DNA of 64,000 bases, taken from NCBI GenBank assembly GCA_016744295.1, contig JADGEQ010000025.1:1-64000 (forward strand), read 5' to 3'. This DNA is from Desulfobacteraceae bacterium. GTDB taxonomy: Bacteria; Desulfobacterota; Desulfobacteria; Desulfobacterales; Desulfobacteraceae. The notes below the pieces were generated by a model. The model saw only the letters and a list, made by a program, of their open reading frames with translations. It made no database searches and was not told the origin of the DNA. Numbering within the stretch: position 1 is the stretch's first letter; every line of letters starts with the position of its first letter. Positions 56,383-63,347 of this stretch are shown piece after piece. A program made the translations under genes and the position numbers.

Positions 56383-56398
56383 TGCCAGATTCGTGCCA
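56383..56398 (-). promoter_or_regulatory. candidate sigma54 (-24/-12) promoter of the adenine deaminase operon
   Basis: Minus strand TGGCACG-AATC-TGGCA (consensus TGGCACG-N4-TTGCA, one mismatch, GG-N10-GC kept). Confidence 0.7.
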
Positions 56399-56541: not shown

Positions 56542-56580
56542 AAGTCATTTAAGACTTGGGGCCAAGTCGTTATTGACTTG
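56542..56580. promoter_or_regulatory. paired dyads, candidate activator (UAS) sites for the adenine deaminase promoter
   Basis: AAGTC-ATTTAA-GACTT (56542-56557) and CAAGTC-GTTATT-GACTTG (56563-56580), centres 22 bp apart. Confidence 0.65.
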
Positions 56581-58066
56581 ATTTCAGAGCAGGTTTTACA
56601 TGTTTTTTGATAAGCCTGTGGGCCCGGGACTGACTGATCTTAAGTGCGCGGGCCATTTTATAGGAACTGCCTGTCTCTTCATAGGCAGCCCTGATTATTT
56701 GTGATTCAATTGTGTGAAGGGTATCATCCAACGCAAGATCCTGGGTTGAGATTTGGAAATCCCTTGTCTGGGTCGGGAAAAAACCCATGGGAAGGAGGGC
56801 TGATGTAATCTGAGACCCGGCAGTTGTCACCACCAGCATTTCAACAAGGTGCTTAAGCTCCCTGACATTGCCCGGCCATGAATACCCAATCAGATGTTCA
56901 ATTGCCTCGGGGGAAAAAGAGTGGTCAACATGGTATTGCTGATCAAATTTATTTAAAAAATACTGGCTCAGGGGAATCACGTCTTCCCGTCTTTCCGTCA
57001 GGGGCGGGATATCAATCTCCAGTGTTTTTAAACGGTAGTACAGGTCACTGCGAAATTTGCCCTGATCGACAAGTTGTGCCACGGGCTGGTTGGTTGCCGC
57101 CAGAAACCTGCATTGAACTTGCTTATAAACGCTGCCGCCCACCGGCAGATATTGTTTTTCCTCAAGCATGTGAAGCATTTTTGCCTGGAGATGTAAAGGG
57201 ATTTCCCCAACCTCATCCAGCAGCAAGGTGCCTCCCCTGGCAAGCTCAATAAGACCTGGCTTGCCTTTTGGGTCTGCTCCGGAAAAGGCGCGTGAAGCAT
57301 AACCGTAAAGCTCAGATTCCATGAGCTGATCCGGGATGGCAGCGCAATTGACGGGGATAAACGGTCCTTTTTTGTGGGGGCTTTGTTTGTGAATATATTT
57401 GGCCAGCATGGTTTTGCCAGTACCGGTCTGCCCGGTGATCAACAAGGATGCGTTGACCTTGGCCAGCCTTCTGACCAATTCGAGAATGTCGGTCATCACT
57501 TTGCTATGGGTTATAAAATCAACTTCCAGCTCTTTTTTCCGCAACACTTCCACTTCACGCTGATACCTGTATAAAAGTTTCTTGGTCAGATCCAAGTCAT
57601 TTTTGACTTGGTTGAGCATGGTCACATCCCTCAGGTTTTCCACAACCATCTCCAGCTTATTGTCATTGTCAAAAACAGGAGTGGCCGTAACCAGAAGATT
57701 CCGGCCCGTATTACTCATGGTTTCGTAGGTGGCTGTTTTCTCGGTTTTCAGGACGATGGGACCGACGGGCGGATAAAAATATCCCTGGTTGCTGGACTCG
57801 GTTACATTCTGTCCAATGATTTTCTCAGGCTGAATCCCATAATGCTTAAGGGAGGTTTTATTTACATAAACACAGGTGCCGCTTTTATCAATAACATAGA
57901 GTTCGTCATACATGTGATCAAGGATTTTAAGCAAGGTTTTTCGATCAGGATATACTTTTTTTTTAAGCCTTTTTTTTTGAGCAGATAAATCAGATGTCAT
58001 GCCAGTTTTGCCTCTATCATTAAAAATAATAACGGCAAAGATAAGCAAAAAAACATTAAAAAGCAA
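56570..58066 (-). CDS. PAS-sigma54 activator with Fis-type HTH (true start may be at an internal Met)
   Basis: PAS (LYVIDKSGTCVYVNKTSLKHYGI), GQTGTGKTMLAKYIH, TLLLDEVGEIPLHLQAKML, C-term HTH GSSYKMARALKISQSRAHRLIKKH. Confidence 0.93.
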   Translation of the reverse strand: MLFNVFLLIFAVIIFNDRGKTGMTSDLSAQKKRLKKKVYPDRKTLLKILDHMYDELYVIDKSGTCVYVNKTSLKHYGIQPEKIIGQNVTESSNQGYFYPPVGPIVLKTEKTATYETMSNTGRNLLVTATPVFDNDNKLEMVVENLRDVTMLNQVKNDLDLTKKLLYRYQREVEVLRKKELEVDFITHSKVMTDILELVRRLAKVNASLLITGQTGTGKTMLAKYIHKQSPHKKGPFIPVNCAAIPDQLMESELYGYASRAFSGADPKGKPGLIELARGGTLLLDEVGEIPLHLQAKMLHMLEEKQYLPVGGSVYKQVQCRFLAATNQPVAQLVDQGKFRSDLYYRLKTLEIDIPPLTERREDVIPLSQYFLNKFDQQYHVDHSFSPEAIEHLIGYSWPGNVRELKHLVEMLVVTTAGSQITSALLPMGFFPTQTRDFQISTQDLALDDTLHTIESQIIRAAYEETGSSYKMARALKISQSRAHRLIKKHVKPALKSSQ

Positions 58067-58201: not shown

Positions 58202-59623
58202 TTAATGGGTTAAATGGGGGGGATAGGATTTTTTTAGTTTTCTGGACAGGGTTGACTGGCTGATGCCAAGGGCTTTTGCAGCTTTACGCTGGCTGCCATG
58301 TTTTTCAACCGCCTGTTTGAGTTTTTTTTGTTCAAAGGCACCTAACTCACCCTGATGGGTTGACGTCTCATGGGCTGAATTCATCTCATCTATATTTATT
58401 TTTGCCAGCATGGGGGGGAGGTGTCCCAGATCAATATGGTCGGTTTTTGTCATGGTGACCAGACGTCTGATAAGGTTTTCCAATTCCCTGACATTGCCGG
58501 GAAAATCATATTGGGACAACACCTGGCAGACAGGTTGGGACAGGGTCTTTTGGGTATTAAACTCCTGGTTGAACCGGTCGAGAAAAGACAGGGCCAGGGG
58601 GACAATATCCTCTGACCTTTCCAGGAGTGATGGAATCCGAATGGGCACCACATTGAGCCTAAAATAAAGATCCCGCCTGAAGCTGCCTTTTTCCACCATG
58701 TCTTCAAGATTCTGGTTGGTGGCGGCAATGATTTTTGTGTTAATTTTTATGGGGCTGGTTCCCCCCACCCGGATCAATTCCATTGTTTCCAGAAATTTTA
58801 ACAGCTTTACCTGTATGGGAAGGGGAATCTCACCGATTTCATCCAAAAAAAGCGTTCCCTGGTCTGCAGTTTCAAAAAGACCCTTTTTCCCTTTGCTGGA
58901 TGCCCCGGTAAAGGCCCCGCTCTCATGGCCGAATAATTCAGATTCAATCAAAGAGGGGGTGATGGCCGCGCAGTTCAGATCTGTAAACGGATAGTTCCTT
59001 CTCCGGGACAATTGGTGGATCAACCGGGCAATCATGGATTTACCCACACCGGATTCTCCGGTAAGAATCATGGGAACATCAAATTTAGATGCCTGGATTA
59101 CCATCTGAAGCACCTTTACCATGGCCGGACTTTTAACCACCATTTTTTCCAATTCCGTGGAGACAAGATCAATGTCTGAAAAATCCAGTCTCAACCCGGC
59201 TTCGGGAGACTCCTCGGGATAAAGGCTTTGGGCCAGCATGTTGATGTGGGAAATATCCCTGTCATTGACCATTACAAATTTAATTTGACCGGCTGAATCA
59301 AAAATAGGCACCCCGGTTGAAAGAATTTTCTTCTGGTGGCGGGTGGTCTGAATCAAAGAAATTATGGTTTTTTGCCTGAGGACAAGGAGGGAAACCGATG
59401 GTTCGTAAAACCCTGCTTTGACCAGGTCCCGGACATTTTTCCCAAGAACCTCGGCGGTCTTAAAACGAAACATGTCTTCGGTGGCCCGATTCACCATCAC
59501 CACCACCCCGTTTTTATCCACCACAAAAAGGCCGTCCTTTGAATGATCCATGATGGCGTCAAAAATCAGCTCAAAATCTTTTGGTTTCAGGGTGCTGAAA
59601 AGCCCCATTTTTTCTTTCAACAT
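58202..59623 (-). CDS. PAS-sigma54 activator with Fis-type HTH (start chosen at MLKEKMGLF; the track ORF extends to 59869)
   Basis: PAS (LFVVDKNGVVVMVNRATEDMFRF), GESGVGKSMIARLIH, ELFGHESGAFTGA, C-term GSQRKAAKALGISQSTLSRKLKK. Confidence 0.93.
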   Translation of the reverse strand: MLKEKMGLFSTLKPKDFELIFDAIMDHSKDGLFVVDKNGVVVMVNRATEDMFRFKTAEVLGKNVRDLVKAGFYEPSVSLLVLRQKTIISLIQTTRHQKKILSTGVPIFDSAGQIKFVMVNDRDISHINMLAQSLYPEESPEAGLRLDFSDIDLVSTELEKMVVKSPAMVKVLQMVIQASKFDVPMILTGESGVGKSMIARLIHQLSRRRNYPFTDLNCAAITPSLIESELFGHESGAFTGASSKGKKGLFETADQGTLFLDEIGEIPLPIQVKLLKFLETMELIRVGGTSPIKINTKIIAATNQNLEDMVEKGSFRRDLYFRLNVVPIRIPSLLERSEDIVPLALSFLDRFNQEFNTQKTLSQPVCQVLSQYDFPGNVRELENLIRRLVTMTKTDHIDLGHLPPMLAKINIDEMNSAHETSTHQGELGAFEQKKLKQAVEKHGSQRKAAKALGISQSTLSRKLKKSYPPHLTH

Positions 59624-59731: not shown

Positions 59732-59780
59732 TGATTCAGATATGAATAGTCCATCTTTGATGTGATTCATATTTGAATCA
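59732..59780. promoter_or_regulatory. paired dyads, candidate UAS of the TRAP operon
   Basis: TGATTCA-GATA-TGAATAG (59732-59749) and TGATTCA-TATT-TGAATCA (59763-59780). Confidence 0.72.
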
Positions 59781-59911
59781 TTTTTCACAAGATAAGGCTC
59801 TTTTGTAAACAGACTTTCTTTCCAGGCAACACCATGTTTTGCCGTAATCCATTGTTTTTTCGGATACATATGCCCTGTGATCTAGGGTTTGTATATCCAT
59901 TAAAAAATCAA

Positions 59912-59927
59912 TGGCATGCTTGTTGCT
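59912..59927 (+). promoter_or_regulatory. sigma54 (-24/-12) promoter of the TRAP operon
   Basis: TGGCATG-CTTG-TTGCT, 75 bp upstream of the first ATG. Confidence 0.88.
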
Positions 59928-60001
59928 CATTTTATGGATCGTGTTATTAAATGCATGACTGACTTTCTACAATCGTTAATCTTTAATCTTAAGGAGTGTA
60001 A

Positions 60002-61015
60002 ATGATGAAGAAAAAAGTATGGTTAAAATGTGTTACAGGCTTTGCGGTAACCGCCTTGGTGCTATCTCTTTCCCTCCCGGTATCCGCCAAAACATGGAAA
60101 ATTGCTGTGGGTGATTCGGGGGGAAGCCCCCAGGAGCAAACCGGTATTAAATTTGCCCAGGTTCTGGAAAGAGAAACAAATGGCAACTACAAAGCAACTC
60201 TTTTTCTTAACGGCCAGCTGGGCAGTGAGCAGGACACGGTGAATGATTGTGCCATGGGAACCTTGGATTTTTCTCTGCTTGCCATTAATAATGTGACCCC
60301 GTTTTCTCCCACCGTTGGCAGTCTGTCTTTGCCCTATGTTATTCAGAGCATTGAAGAAGCCGAAAAACTCACCCAGGGTGAAATTGGTGCAGAATTGACC
60401 CAAAACACTATCCGGGACGCAAACGTTCGAATAATTGCCTGGACCTACACGGGATTCCGTGTTCTCACAAACTCGAAAAAACCGGTCAAAACCCTGAAAG
60501 ACTTGAAGGGTTTGGTTGTTCGTGTTCCTAAAAATGCGATTATGATTGATACCTATAAATCATGGGGCATTAATCCTACTCCCATGGCCTGGTCTGAAAC
60601 CTTTACAGCCCTTCAGCAGAAGGTTGTGGATGGTCAGGACAATCCCTATATGACCGTATGGGCAATGAAATTCTATGAAATTCAAAAATATGTAACCGCA
60701 ATTCGATACCTCTTCTCCCTTGAACCGCTTATTATTTCCGAAGATCTTTTCCAGAGCCAGTCTCCCGAGATGCAGGCAATTATTCTCAAGGCCGGAAAAG
60801 AAGCCACCCTCCACAGCGCTGCCTTCTTGAAAAAATCCGAAGACAATATCAAAAAGGAGCTTGTGAATGCGGGTATGGTCATAGATGAACCGGCAAACGG
60901 CGAAAAAGAGTGGATTGAAAAGGCCACCAAAGCCGTATGGCCCAAATATTATGATAGTATCGGCGGAAAAGACAAACTTGAAAAAATTCTAAACATGTTG
61001 GGGCGAAGTATCTAA
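60002..61015 (+). CDS. TRAP transporter substrate-binding protein (DctP family)
   Basis: Signal peptide; GTLDFSLLAINNVTPFSPTVGSLSLPYVIQSIEEAEKL; LQQKVVDGQDNPYMTVWAMKFYEIQKYVT. Confidence 0.95.
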   Translation: MMKKKVWLKCVTGFAVTALVLSLSLPVSAKTWKIAVGDSGGSPQEQTGIKFAQVLERETNGNYKATLFLNGQLGSEQDTVNDCAMGTLDFSLLAINNVTPFSPTVGSLSLPYVIQSIEEAEKLTQGEIGAELTQNTIRDANVRIIAWTYTGFRVLTNSKKPVKTLKDLKGLVVRVPKNAIMIDTYKSWGINPTPMAWSETFTALQQKVVDGQDNPYMTVWAMKFYEIQKYVTAIRYLFSLEPLIISEDLFQSQSPEMQAIILKAGKEATLHSAAFLKKSEDNIKKELVNAGMVIDEPANGEKEWIEKATKAVWPKYYDSIGGKDKLEKILNMLGRSI

Positions 61016-61132
61016 TAAATCTCGGCTGACTATTTTACGAAAAGCAACCTGTTTTAAGAAAAACAAAATGGGGATGTTCTGGGCAAAGATAGATGACAGG
61101 GCATCCTTTTTTTTTCAAGAAAAGGAAGCACC

Positions 61133-61699
61133 ATGGAACAAAGATACCGCGTTATCCTTCAGTTTCTCAATAATTTTGAGAGCTATATTTGTCAACTTTT
61201 ATTGGCGTTTTTTGTTGTATTGCTCTTTGTGCAAATCCTCCTCAGAGAATTTTTTTCCTATTCCATCTCCTGGGGGGAAGAACTGGCAACCTATCTGTTT
61301 GTCTGGTTTGTATTTTTTGGGGCCTGTTATGCCTGTCGCCTGGGTGCCCACAACAGGGTGACCTTTCAGTTCAAACTGCTGCCCCGGAAAGTTGCCCTTG
61401 GTATTGAAGCCTTCTCCGATCTGATCTGGGTCATTTTCAATTGTTATTTTATCTACCTGAGTTATACCTTTGTTTTTGTCAAAATGAATCTGTTCTGGAA
61501 GTCACAGACCATGGGCATTCCCATGAAATATTTTTATATGGTGCTGCCCCTGGCCTTTGGGTTGATGACAATTCGAGTGCTCCAACTGAACTACCTTAAA
61601 CTGATCAAGGGAATCGACATCAAGGATCCTGATGCCCTGGAGGTGGAGAAAGTCCTGGCAGAAAATAATCCTAAACCCCTAATGCAGGAGAACAATTGA
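61133..61699 (+). CDS. TRAP transporter small permease (DctQ family)
   Basis: FFSYSISWGEELATYLFVWFVFFGACYACRLGAHNRV; lies between DctP and DctM genes. Confidence 0.94.
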   Translation: MEQRYRVILQFLNNFESYICQLLLAFFVVLLFVQILLREFFSYSISWGEELATYLFVWFVFFGACYACRLGAHNRVTFQFKLLPRKVALGIEAFSDLIWVIFNCYFIYLSYTFVFVKMNLFWKSQTMGIPMKYFYMVLPLAFGLMTIRVLQLNYLKLIKGIDIKDPDALEVEKVLAENNPKPLMQENN

Positions 61700-61700
61700 T

Positions 61701-63041
61701 TTGGAAACCGCTATCGTCTTCATTCTTTTTGGCGCCTTTTTGATACTGCTCCTGCTGGGAGCACCGATTTCAATCTCTTTGGGTGTGTCTGCCGTGGCCG
61801 CCTTTCTCTACCTTGGAGACAATCCCATTAAACTGGTGCAAATTGCTTTTACCTCTGTGGGATCTTTCCCTTTGATGGCCCTGCCGGCATTTATACTGGC
61901 CGGGGCATTGATGGAGGCCGCCGGTGTTTCCAAACGTTTGGTCACCCTGGCAGAATCCTTTGCCGGGCCTATGACCGGCGGAATTTCCTGTGCCACGGTT
62001 ATCGCCTGTATGTTTTTTGGGGCCATCTCAGGTTCCGGACCGGCCACCACGGCTGCCGTGGGCATGCTCATGATCCCGGCCATGGTGAACCGGGGATACG
62101 ACAAGGGCTATGCCTCTGCCATTACAGCATCTTCCGGGGGATTGGGGGTTGTTATCCCCCCTTCAATTCCCATGGTTATTTTTGGAATATCCGGCATGGG
62201 AATCCAGGCCCCGGCGGAAGCCGTCGCCAAGTTTGGAAGCTTTCAAACCGTGTCCATTCCCAAACTTTTTGTGGCGGGTTTTTTCCCTGGCCTGGTGATA
62301 TCCATCGCACTGATGATAATGAATTATTTTTTGTGTAAAAAATATGGTTACAAGGGCCTCACAGACAGCTGGTCCTTCAGCGCCATGGGGCGGGCCTTCA
62401 GGGACGGATTTTGGGCAATCCTTGCCCCCATTGTTATCCTCGGCGGAATTTATACGGGAATGTTCACCCCCACGGAATCTGCCATCATTGCCATTTTTTA
62501 TACCCTGTTCGTGGGGCTCTTTATCCATAAAGAATTAAAGCGAAAAGAGATCATGCGAGCCCTTGAAACCACCACCTGGTTGACGGGCAGGGTGTTGCTC
62601 ATCCTCTTCACGGCAACGGTTTTCGGTCGTCTCTTGGTTGAGAATCAGATACCGGCCATTGTGGCGGAAGCCATGCTTTCATTTACCCAGAATCCCTATC
62701 TAATATGGGCCATGATTATATTTTTCCTGTTGTTTGTGGGAATGTTCATGGAAACCCTGGCCACCATCATGATTCTAACACCTGTGCTGCTGCCGATCAT
62801 GTACAACCTGGGTATAGATCCCATCCATTTTGGTATTGTTCTGGTCTGCTGCTGTGAAATTGGATTTCAGACACCACCCCTGGGAGAGAACCTGTTTATT
62901 GCCTCGGGTATTGCAGATGTCACCATTGAGGAAATATCCATCAAGGCGATCCCCTTCTCCATTGTTGCGGTTATTGCCGTTTTTCTGATTGCCTATATAC
63001 CTCAGATATCCCTCTGGCTGCCCAAATTGATGGGATATTGA
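61701..63041 (+). CDS. TRAP transporter large permease (DctM family)
   Basis: LGAPISISLGVSAVAAF...GAISGSGPATTAAVGMLMIPAMVNRGYDKGYASAITASSGGLGVVIPPSIPMVIFG. Confidence 0.97.
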   Translation: METAIVFILFGAFLILLLLGAPISISLGVSAVAAFLYLGDNPIKLVQIAFTSVGSFPLMALPAFILAGALMEAAGVSKRLVTLAESFAGPMTGGISCATVIACMFFGAISGSGPATTAAVGMLMIPAMVNRGYDKGYASAITASSGGLGVVIPPSIPMVIFGISGMGIQAPAEAVAKFGSFQTVSIPKLFVAGFFPGLVISIALMIMNYFLCKKYGYKGLTDSWSFSAMGRAFRDGFWAILAPIVILGGIYTGMFTPTESAIIAIFYTLFVGLFIHKELKRKEIMRALETTTWLTGRVLLILFTATVFGRLLVENQIPAIVAEAMLSFTQNPYLIWAMIIFFLLFVGMFMETLATIMILTPVLLPIMYNLGIDPIHFGIVLVCCCEIGFQTPPLGENLFIASGIADVTIEEISIKAIPFSIVAVIAVFLIAYIPQISLWLPKLMGY

Positions 63042-63086
63042 TACCCCTCCCCTTATTTGTTTAAATAACCCCTGAATTAAAAACTT

Positions 63087-63126
63087 GCCGGTGTCTGTAA
63101 TGGCAATTGCTATAATAGACACTGGC
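63087..63126 (+). terminator. terminator of the TRAP operon
   Basis: GCCGGTGTCT...AGACACTGGC stem followed by TTTTTATTTGTTTTTTG. Confidence 0.75.
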
Positions 63127-63155
63127 TTTTTATTTGTTTTTTGTCCCAACCCAAG

Positions 63156-63203
63156 TGATTCATATTTTCATCACTTTGATTCAAATGATTCAGCCCTGAA
63201 TGA
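63156..63203. promoter_or_regulatory. paired dyads, candidate UAS of the FAD oxidoreductase gene
   Basis: TGATTCA-TATT-TTCATCA (63156-63173) and TGATTCA-GCCC-TGAATGA (63186-63203). Confidence 0.68.
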
Positions 63204-63331
63204 AAATGAATAATTTAAAAAAAATAAGCCCATGTTGTCCACCGGAGCAATGGGGCTAACTATCTGTTTTAAAGGCGTATAATAATCTAACTCTTTCCAA
63301 AACACTATTTCTTTCACCCGTGGATACCCCC

Positions 63332-63347
63332 TGGCACAGCTGTTGCT
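63332..63347 (+). promoter_or_regulatory. sigma54 (-24/-12) promoter of the FAD oxidoreductase gene
   Basis: TGGCACA-GCTG-TTGCT, 89 bp upstream of the ATG at 63436. Confidence 0.88.

Follow-up and report, generated by a model that had tools for sequence, protein, structure and literature searches.

The window analysed here is the whole stretch of 64,000 nucleotides from a marine sulfate reducer (Desulfobacteraceae bacterium, GCA_016744295.1, JADGEQ010000025.1, positions 1-64,000, forward strand). It holds the gene for an activator that we call REG, a complete set of TRAP transporter genes (dctP, dctQ and dctM together) and the first part of fad; etfB and etfA follow closely downstream of fad and reach contig position 67704. 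The genes, the predicted sigma54 promoters of the two operons and the dyads upstream of them are listed in Table 1.

Table 1. Genes, predicted sigma54 promoters and dyads of the REG locus
Feature	Position	Strand	Sequence or basis
REG, PAS - sigma54-interaction AAA+ - Fis/HTH_50, predicted one-component activator, 473 aa	58202..59623	-	Pfam
Distal dyad, dctP promoter	59732-59749	.	TGATTCAGATATGAATAG, 2 mismatches
Proximal dyad, dctP promoter	59763-59780	.	TGATTCATATTTGAATCA, perfect
Predicted sigma54 promoter, TRAP operon	59912-59927	+	TGGCATGCTTGTTGCT
dctP, TRAP solute-binding protein	60002..61015	+	Pfam DctP; MAG.124 has an ortholog, 87% identical, at the corresponding position
dctQ, TRAP small membrane subunit	61133..61699	+	Domain search
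dctM, TRAP large membrane subunit, TTG start	61701..63041	+	Domain search
Distal dyad, fad promoter	63156-63173	.	TGATTCATATTTTCATCA, 2 mismatches, perfect TGAT-N10-ATCA core
Extra half-site, between both fad dyads	63177-63183	+	TGATTCA
Proximal dyad, fad promoter	63186-63203	.	TGATTCAGCCCTGAATGA, 1 mismatch; OB14 counterpart TGATTCAGCCCGGAATGA
Predicted sigma54 promoter, fad-etfBA operon	63332-63347	+	TGGCACAGCTGTTGCT
fad, DMGDH-like FAD-GcvT oxidoreductase, 815 aa	63436..64000 in the window, ends at contig position 65883	+	Pfam

Anatomy of the locus

The first-pass annotation had placed a PAS-sigma54 activator at 58202-59623, and this is borne out by the Pfam domains of REG (PAS, Sigma54_activat, AAA_lid_14, HTH_50 and HTH_8) and by a GAFTGA loop (HESGAFTGAS) and a Walker A motif (GESGVGKS) in its translation. 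The sensory part is the PAS domain; Pfam gave neither a response-regulator domain nor a match to an ACT domain. Judged by this domain content, REG is a one-component bacterial enhancer-binding protein (EBP). A rescan recovered both sigma54 boxes and all four dyads where they had been annotated. The -24/-12 box TGGCAY-N5-TTGCW is matched exactly at 59912 and 63332, and the dyads are tandem 7-N4-7 palindromes of the TGATTCA-N4-TGAATCA type with the core TGAT-N10-ATCA. The two dyads of a pair start 31 bp apart before dctP and 30 bp apart before fad, as annotated, and the centre of the proximal dyad lies 140.5 bp (dctP) and 137.5 bp (fad) from the -24 box, against earlier estimates of about 140 and 138 bp.

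The gene annotated as an FAD-dependent amine or amino-acid oxidoreductase can be described more closely, on the basis of Pfam and the structure 5l46, as an FAD-GcvT protein that resembles DMGDH and is accompanied by an ETF pair. Fad carries DAO, FAO_M, GCV_T and GCV_T_C domains, the architecture of dimethylglycine/sarcosine dehydrogenases, and matches human DMGDH (5l46) over nearly its whole length. It resembles DMGDH (5l46, 4p9s) in having these four domains at full length, here with ETF genes adjacent, but it differs in the FAD motif. In DMGDH, the His of the WHAAGL motif is the site of covalent FAD attachment. In Fad this His, present in 5l46, is replaced by Ala (GTTFAAAGL), and the close orthologs that were examined likewise have Ala (GTTWAAAGL).

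For the TRAP system, solved relatives of DctP gave no ligand. Contig C6 carries a closely similar paralogous TRAP operon (L117 9935-13064; DctP 71% identical) with its own sigma54 promoter. It was considered as a third target of REG and rejected; the sigma54 box is present but dyads are absent, and the paralog should therefore answer to another activator.

Specificity of the dyads within the genome

Single dyads with up to 3 mismatches sit at background in the window (6 found, 5.35 expected), so that a lone weak dyad says little. The weight of the dyad evidence lies in close matches, in pairing and in the association with sigma54 boxes. Dyads with at most 1 mismatch occur at four places in the 6.73-Mb genome, two of which are in the window, and TGATTCATATTTGAATCA at 59763 is the sole perfect match in the whole genome. 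A genome scan near sigma54 promoters had been named beforehand as a test, and it placed the dyads above background. The survey covered strict consensus boxes: the genome has 70 exact TGGCAY-N5-TTGCW boxes, 69 of which were checked (67 others and the two window promoters), and dyads of such quality were found at only 2 of the 69, both in the window. When the promoters were scored with a weight matrix built from other genomes only, the window promoters ranked first and second (18.6 and 15.9; next best, 12.4); with a matrix from all sites the scores were 21.8 and 19.2 versus 11.7. When the 300 bp upstream of each promoter were dinucleotide-shuffled, 0 of 2000 shuffles scored as high as the real sequence, for either promoter. 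A search for pairs at a fixed spacing of 31 bp returned only one or two places per genome, one of which was the REG locus in G000, G007 and G244. At one further candidate, L178 on contig C86, the only sites are weak, overlap one another and lie 56-71 bp from the box.

Outside the dyad region the dctP and fad promoters are unlike each other; a recent duplication of one promoter is not evident, and that explanation was rejected. That the dyads reflect a chance similarity of AT-rich DNA agrees with the background frequency of single dyads with 3 mismatches, but it is contradicted by the ranking with the held-out motif, the shuffles, the fixed-spacing pair search and the conservation described below. 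The held-out motif, the shuffles and the co-occurrence with REG together rule out a chance origin with practically no residual doubt.

Conservation of the sites and co-occurrence with REG

Conservation of the dyads at orthologous loci, the other test named in advance, was found in six relatives that have REG beside the fad operon: OB14, MAG.124, ERR599032, Desulfocicer vacuolatum DSM 3385, MO_167.B19 and the Grevelingen Desulfosarcina MAG. Each has a sigma54 box and dyads before the fad operon. A sigma54 promoter together with paired dyads at a spacing of 29-41 bp is present at fad or dctP in Desulfocicer vacuolatum, MO_167.B19, the Grevelingen Desulfosarcina, MAG.124 (at dctP) and ERR599032. 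The spacing is 31 bp in Desulfocicer (TGATGCATACAGACATCA and TGATGCATGCGGACATCA), MO_167 (TGATTCATCTATGCATCA and TGATGTCGGCCTGCATCA) and Grevelingen (TGATGCAGTTTTTCATCA and TGATTCATCCTTGCATCA). In the Grevelingen genome a FixC/ETF-dehydrogenase-like gene heads the operon, and the dyads are retained though the REG gene lacks the recognition helix. The OB14 sites are mostly direct half-site repeats in place of clean dyads; the fad enhancer (L024 1338-1400) consists of TGATTCA half-sites in a tandem 12-bp array (TGATTCATTCAC) and one dyad. MAG.124 repeats the whole order REG, dctPQM, fad-etfBA, with the TRAP genes between REG and the fad operon under their own promoter. It has dyads at both promoters, that of fad having one dyad and half-sites, and the held-out motif scores there were reached by 3 of 2000 and 2 of 2000 shuffles.

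REG orthologs in relatives are 64-85% identical, and the intact ones that were aligned share the recognition-helix sequence QSTLSRK. Near the REG orthologs of Desulfospira, G035 and a Desulfobacula MAG, clear dyad pairs are missing. Loss of the activator in relatives seems to proceed in steps, with the proviso that these are MAG assemblies in which assembly errors are possible: at L194 2217-3641 the recognition helix is lost and the dyads are kept, and at L196 and L197 3560-4119 a PAS-only remnant is left, the sigma54 box is present and the dyads are absent.

The co-occurrence sample comprised fad orthologs of at least 63% identity, with absence of REG judged at E 1e-125. Where REG is adjacent, the fad promoter carries both a sigma54 box and dyads in 7/7 Desulfobacterota genomes, versus a sigma54 box or dyad pair in 0/14 genomes without a REG ortholog (Fisher p about 9e-6, with genomes treated as independent despite their relatedness). 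Two genomes retain only the PAS part of REG; in these the sigma54 box is kept and the dyads are absent. The dyad pairs are thus unusually well conserved across species and gone where the REG gene is missing, and this co-occurrence is the strongest evidence that REG would be the protein that uses them.

The TRAP arm is less widespread; only the window genome and MAG.124 have it with dyads. The DctP orthologs of Desulfocicer and MO_167 (G007 and G244) were considered as targets in trans and rejected, since their dctP genes are located elsewhere and have no dyads. In the other relatives dctP is absent, or is unlinked and has no dyads, which points to fad-etfBA as the conserved target and to the TRAP genes as an added one. 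The TRAP genes therefore look like a lineage-specific addition, and our best reading of the sequences is a small regulon of two operons with fad-etfBA as its conserved core target.

Other activators that might use the dyads

The dyad sequence alone names no regulator, because a REG paralog encoded on contig C11 (39% identical, with the same PAS-AAA-HTH layout) has an identical consensus. In the window genome its dyads lie at C11:56248, 56308 and 56373 (array C11:56248-56390, equal to L017 6249-6391), and 11/12 loci of its orthologs (L206-L217) have two or three dyads of the TGATTCA-N4-TGAATCA type directly downstream of the gene for the activator, so the consensus is common to two activators of one genome. 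On this ground the C11 activator, or both activators, might mainly bind the dyads, and the window operons would belong to a wider cross-regulated set. We consider this improbable. The C11-type arrays have spacings of about 60 and 65 bp and precede an ABC transporter operon (polyamine-type, named by inspection), whereas the pairs at the REG targets are 30-31 bp apart. Moreover, the dyads at fad follow REG, and the fad promoters of G022 and G027, which have the C11 activator without a close REG, lack both the sigma54 box and a pair of dyads. At the window promoters, geometry and co-occurrence thus favour the neighbouring REG over C11 as the likely activator. A tentative idea, rather unlikely at present, is that the two paralogs read the same site and are either kept apart by array geometry (30-31 versus about 60/65 bp) or engaged in deliberate cross-talk.

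A second PAS-sigma54 activator is encoded at 56570-58006, only 2-3 kb away, and could by its proximity be the one that uses the dyads. However, it adjoins a gene for adenine deaminase that has a sigma54-like box of its own (56383-56398). In relatives that have kept the dyads it is not encoded next to fad, and a weak resemblance to it is shown there only by REG itself and further activators; its involvement is very unlikely. Hardly more credible is the proposal that the dyads mainly autoregulate REG and that both sigma54 promoters are controlled in another way. The sites do lie between REG and a divergent target in the window genome, OB14, MAG.124 and ERR599032, but a distance of 3.4 kb separates the fad dyads of the window from REG, and the dyads of G007, G244 and Grevelingen are downstream of REG and before the target. 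Because they are kept at the target promoter when REG is upstream and codirectional (G007 and G244), the dyads are not merely autoregulatory. As a separate observation, the 56570-58006 activator precedes the adenine deaminase gene, whose sigma54-like box reads TGGCACGAATCTGGCA, and the two probably form a separate purine regulon.

Discussion

The first-pass annotation had proposed that REG controls both operons, and this gains support from the conserved dyads, from their sigma54-linked specificity and from the co-occurrence with REG. We consider it very probable that REG acts as an EBP on the paired dyads and switches on dctPQM and fad-etfBA through sigma54. From the anatomy of the locus, the motif specificity, the conservation and the co-occurrence we infer how binding, activation, ligand and substrate may fit together. 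REG dimers would occupy both TGAT-N10-ATCA-like dyads of a pair, which are separated by about three turns of the helix, and REG would oligomerise when a small molecule is sensed, presumably by the PAS domain. It would then loop over the approximately 140 bp, and its AAA+ domain would open the sigma54 polymerase at the two promoters, so that uptake by dctPQM and demethylation by fad-etfBA would be switched on together. Fad probably demethylates dimethylglycine, sarcosine or a related N-methyl amino acid, the C1 unit passing to tetrahydrofolate and the electrons to ETF, and the TRAP system probably imports the substrate of Fad or its precursor.

In Pseudomonas aeruginosa, the TyrR-like EBP GcsR uses three tandem 18-bp sites (TGTAACG-N4-CGTTCCG) and responds to glycine (PMC4894688). 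The likeness to REG extends to an activator beside its target, tandem 7-N4-7 sites upstream of a sigma54 box and a one-carbon/glycine target (PMC4894688). REG differs in that its sites are TGATTCA-N4-TGAATCA-like, number two per promoter instead of three and serve two operons. TyrR carries an N-terminal ACT domain, and because such a domain was not found in REG we describe REG as working like TyrR without filing it as one. According to the main text on the Desulfovibrio vulgaris EBPs, one-component EBP regulons there mostly comprise one to four operons; the EBP gene adjoins its sigma54 promoter and the EBP sites lie upstream (PMC4641369). TRAP and betaine genes go unmentioned in that main text, no TGATTCA-type motif was seen there (PMC4641369), and a literature search for TGATTCA with sigma54 gave no match. 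By analogy, the predicted REG circuit is an ordinary kind of control that fits known EBP regulons.

What is gained is a candidate assignment of regulator, site and target for the methylated-amine pathway of marine sulfate reducers. The regulation of this pathway in these organisms has, to our knowledge, hardly been studied. The assignment also suggests candidate ligands for an orphan TRAP transporter, namely dimethylglycine, sarcosine or a betaine. The site consensus common to two paralogous activators raises the question of activator specificity by spacing, and cross-talk, if true, would tie methylated-amine catabolism to the ABC transporter operon.

The genomic context is consistent with such a substrate. 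REG orthologs that lack an adjacent fad have other neighbours: in Desulfospira a glycine-betaine-type ABC transporter, MttB genes and pylSc, in a Desulfobacula MAG an MttB-family gene together with choline-sulfatase and pyl genes, and in G035 glycine-cleavage genes. In the window genome, pylSc, pylD, pylC and tRNA-Pyl lie just downstream of fad-etfBA (contig C28 at about 68.8-72.3 kb; L016 11789-15253), and there are 13 MttB-family genes, one of them with an in-frame TAG. The neighbours of the REG orthologs, the pyrrolysine set and the MttB genes all point to methylated glycine or betaine catabolism, and our best reading is that the regulon serves the catabolism of N-methylated glycine or a similar compound, the exact one being a deduction from this context. 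Elsewhere, at C49:60070-63990, a second DMGDH-like gene, 42% identical, directly adjoins a member of the MttB family whose reading frame contains a TAG (probably pyrrolysine).
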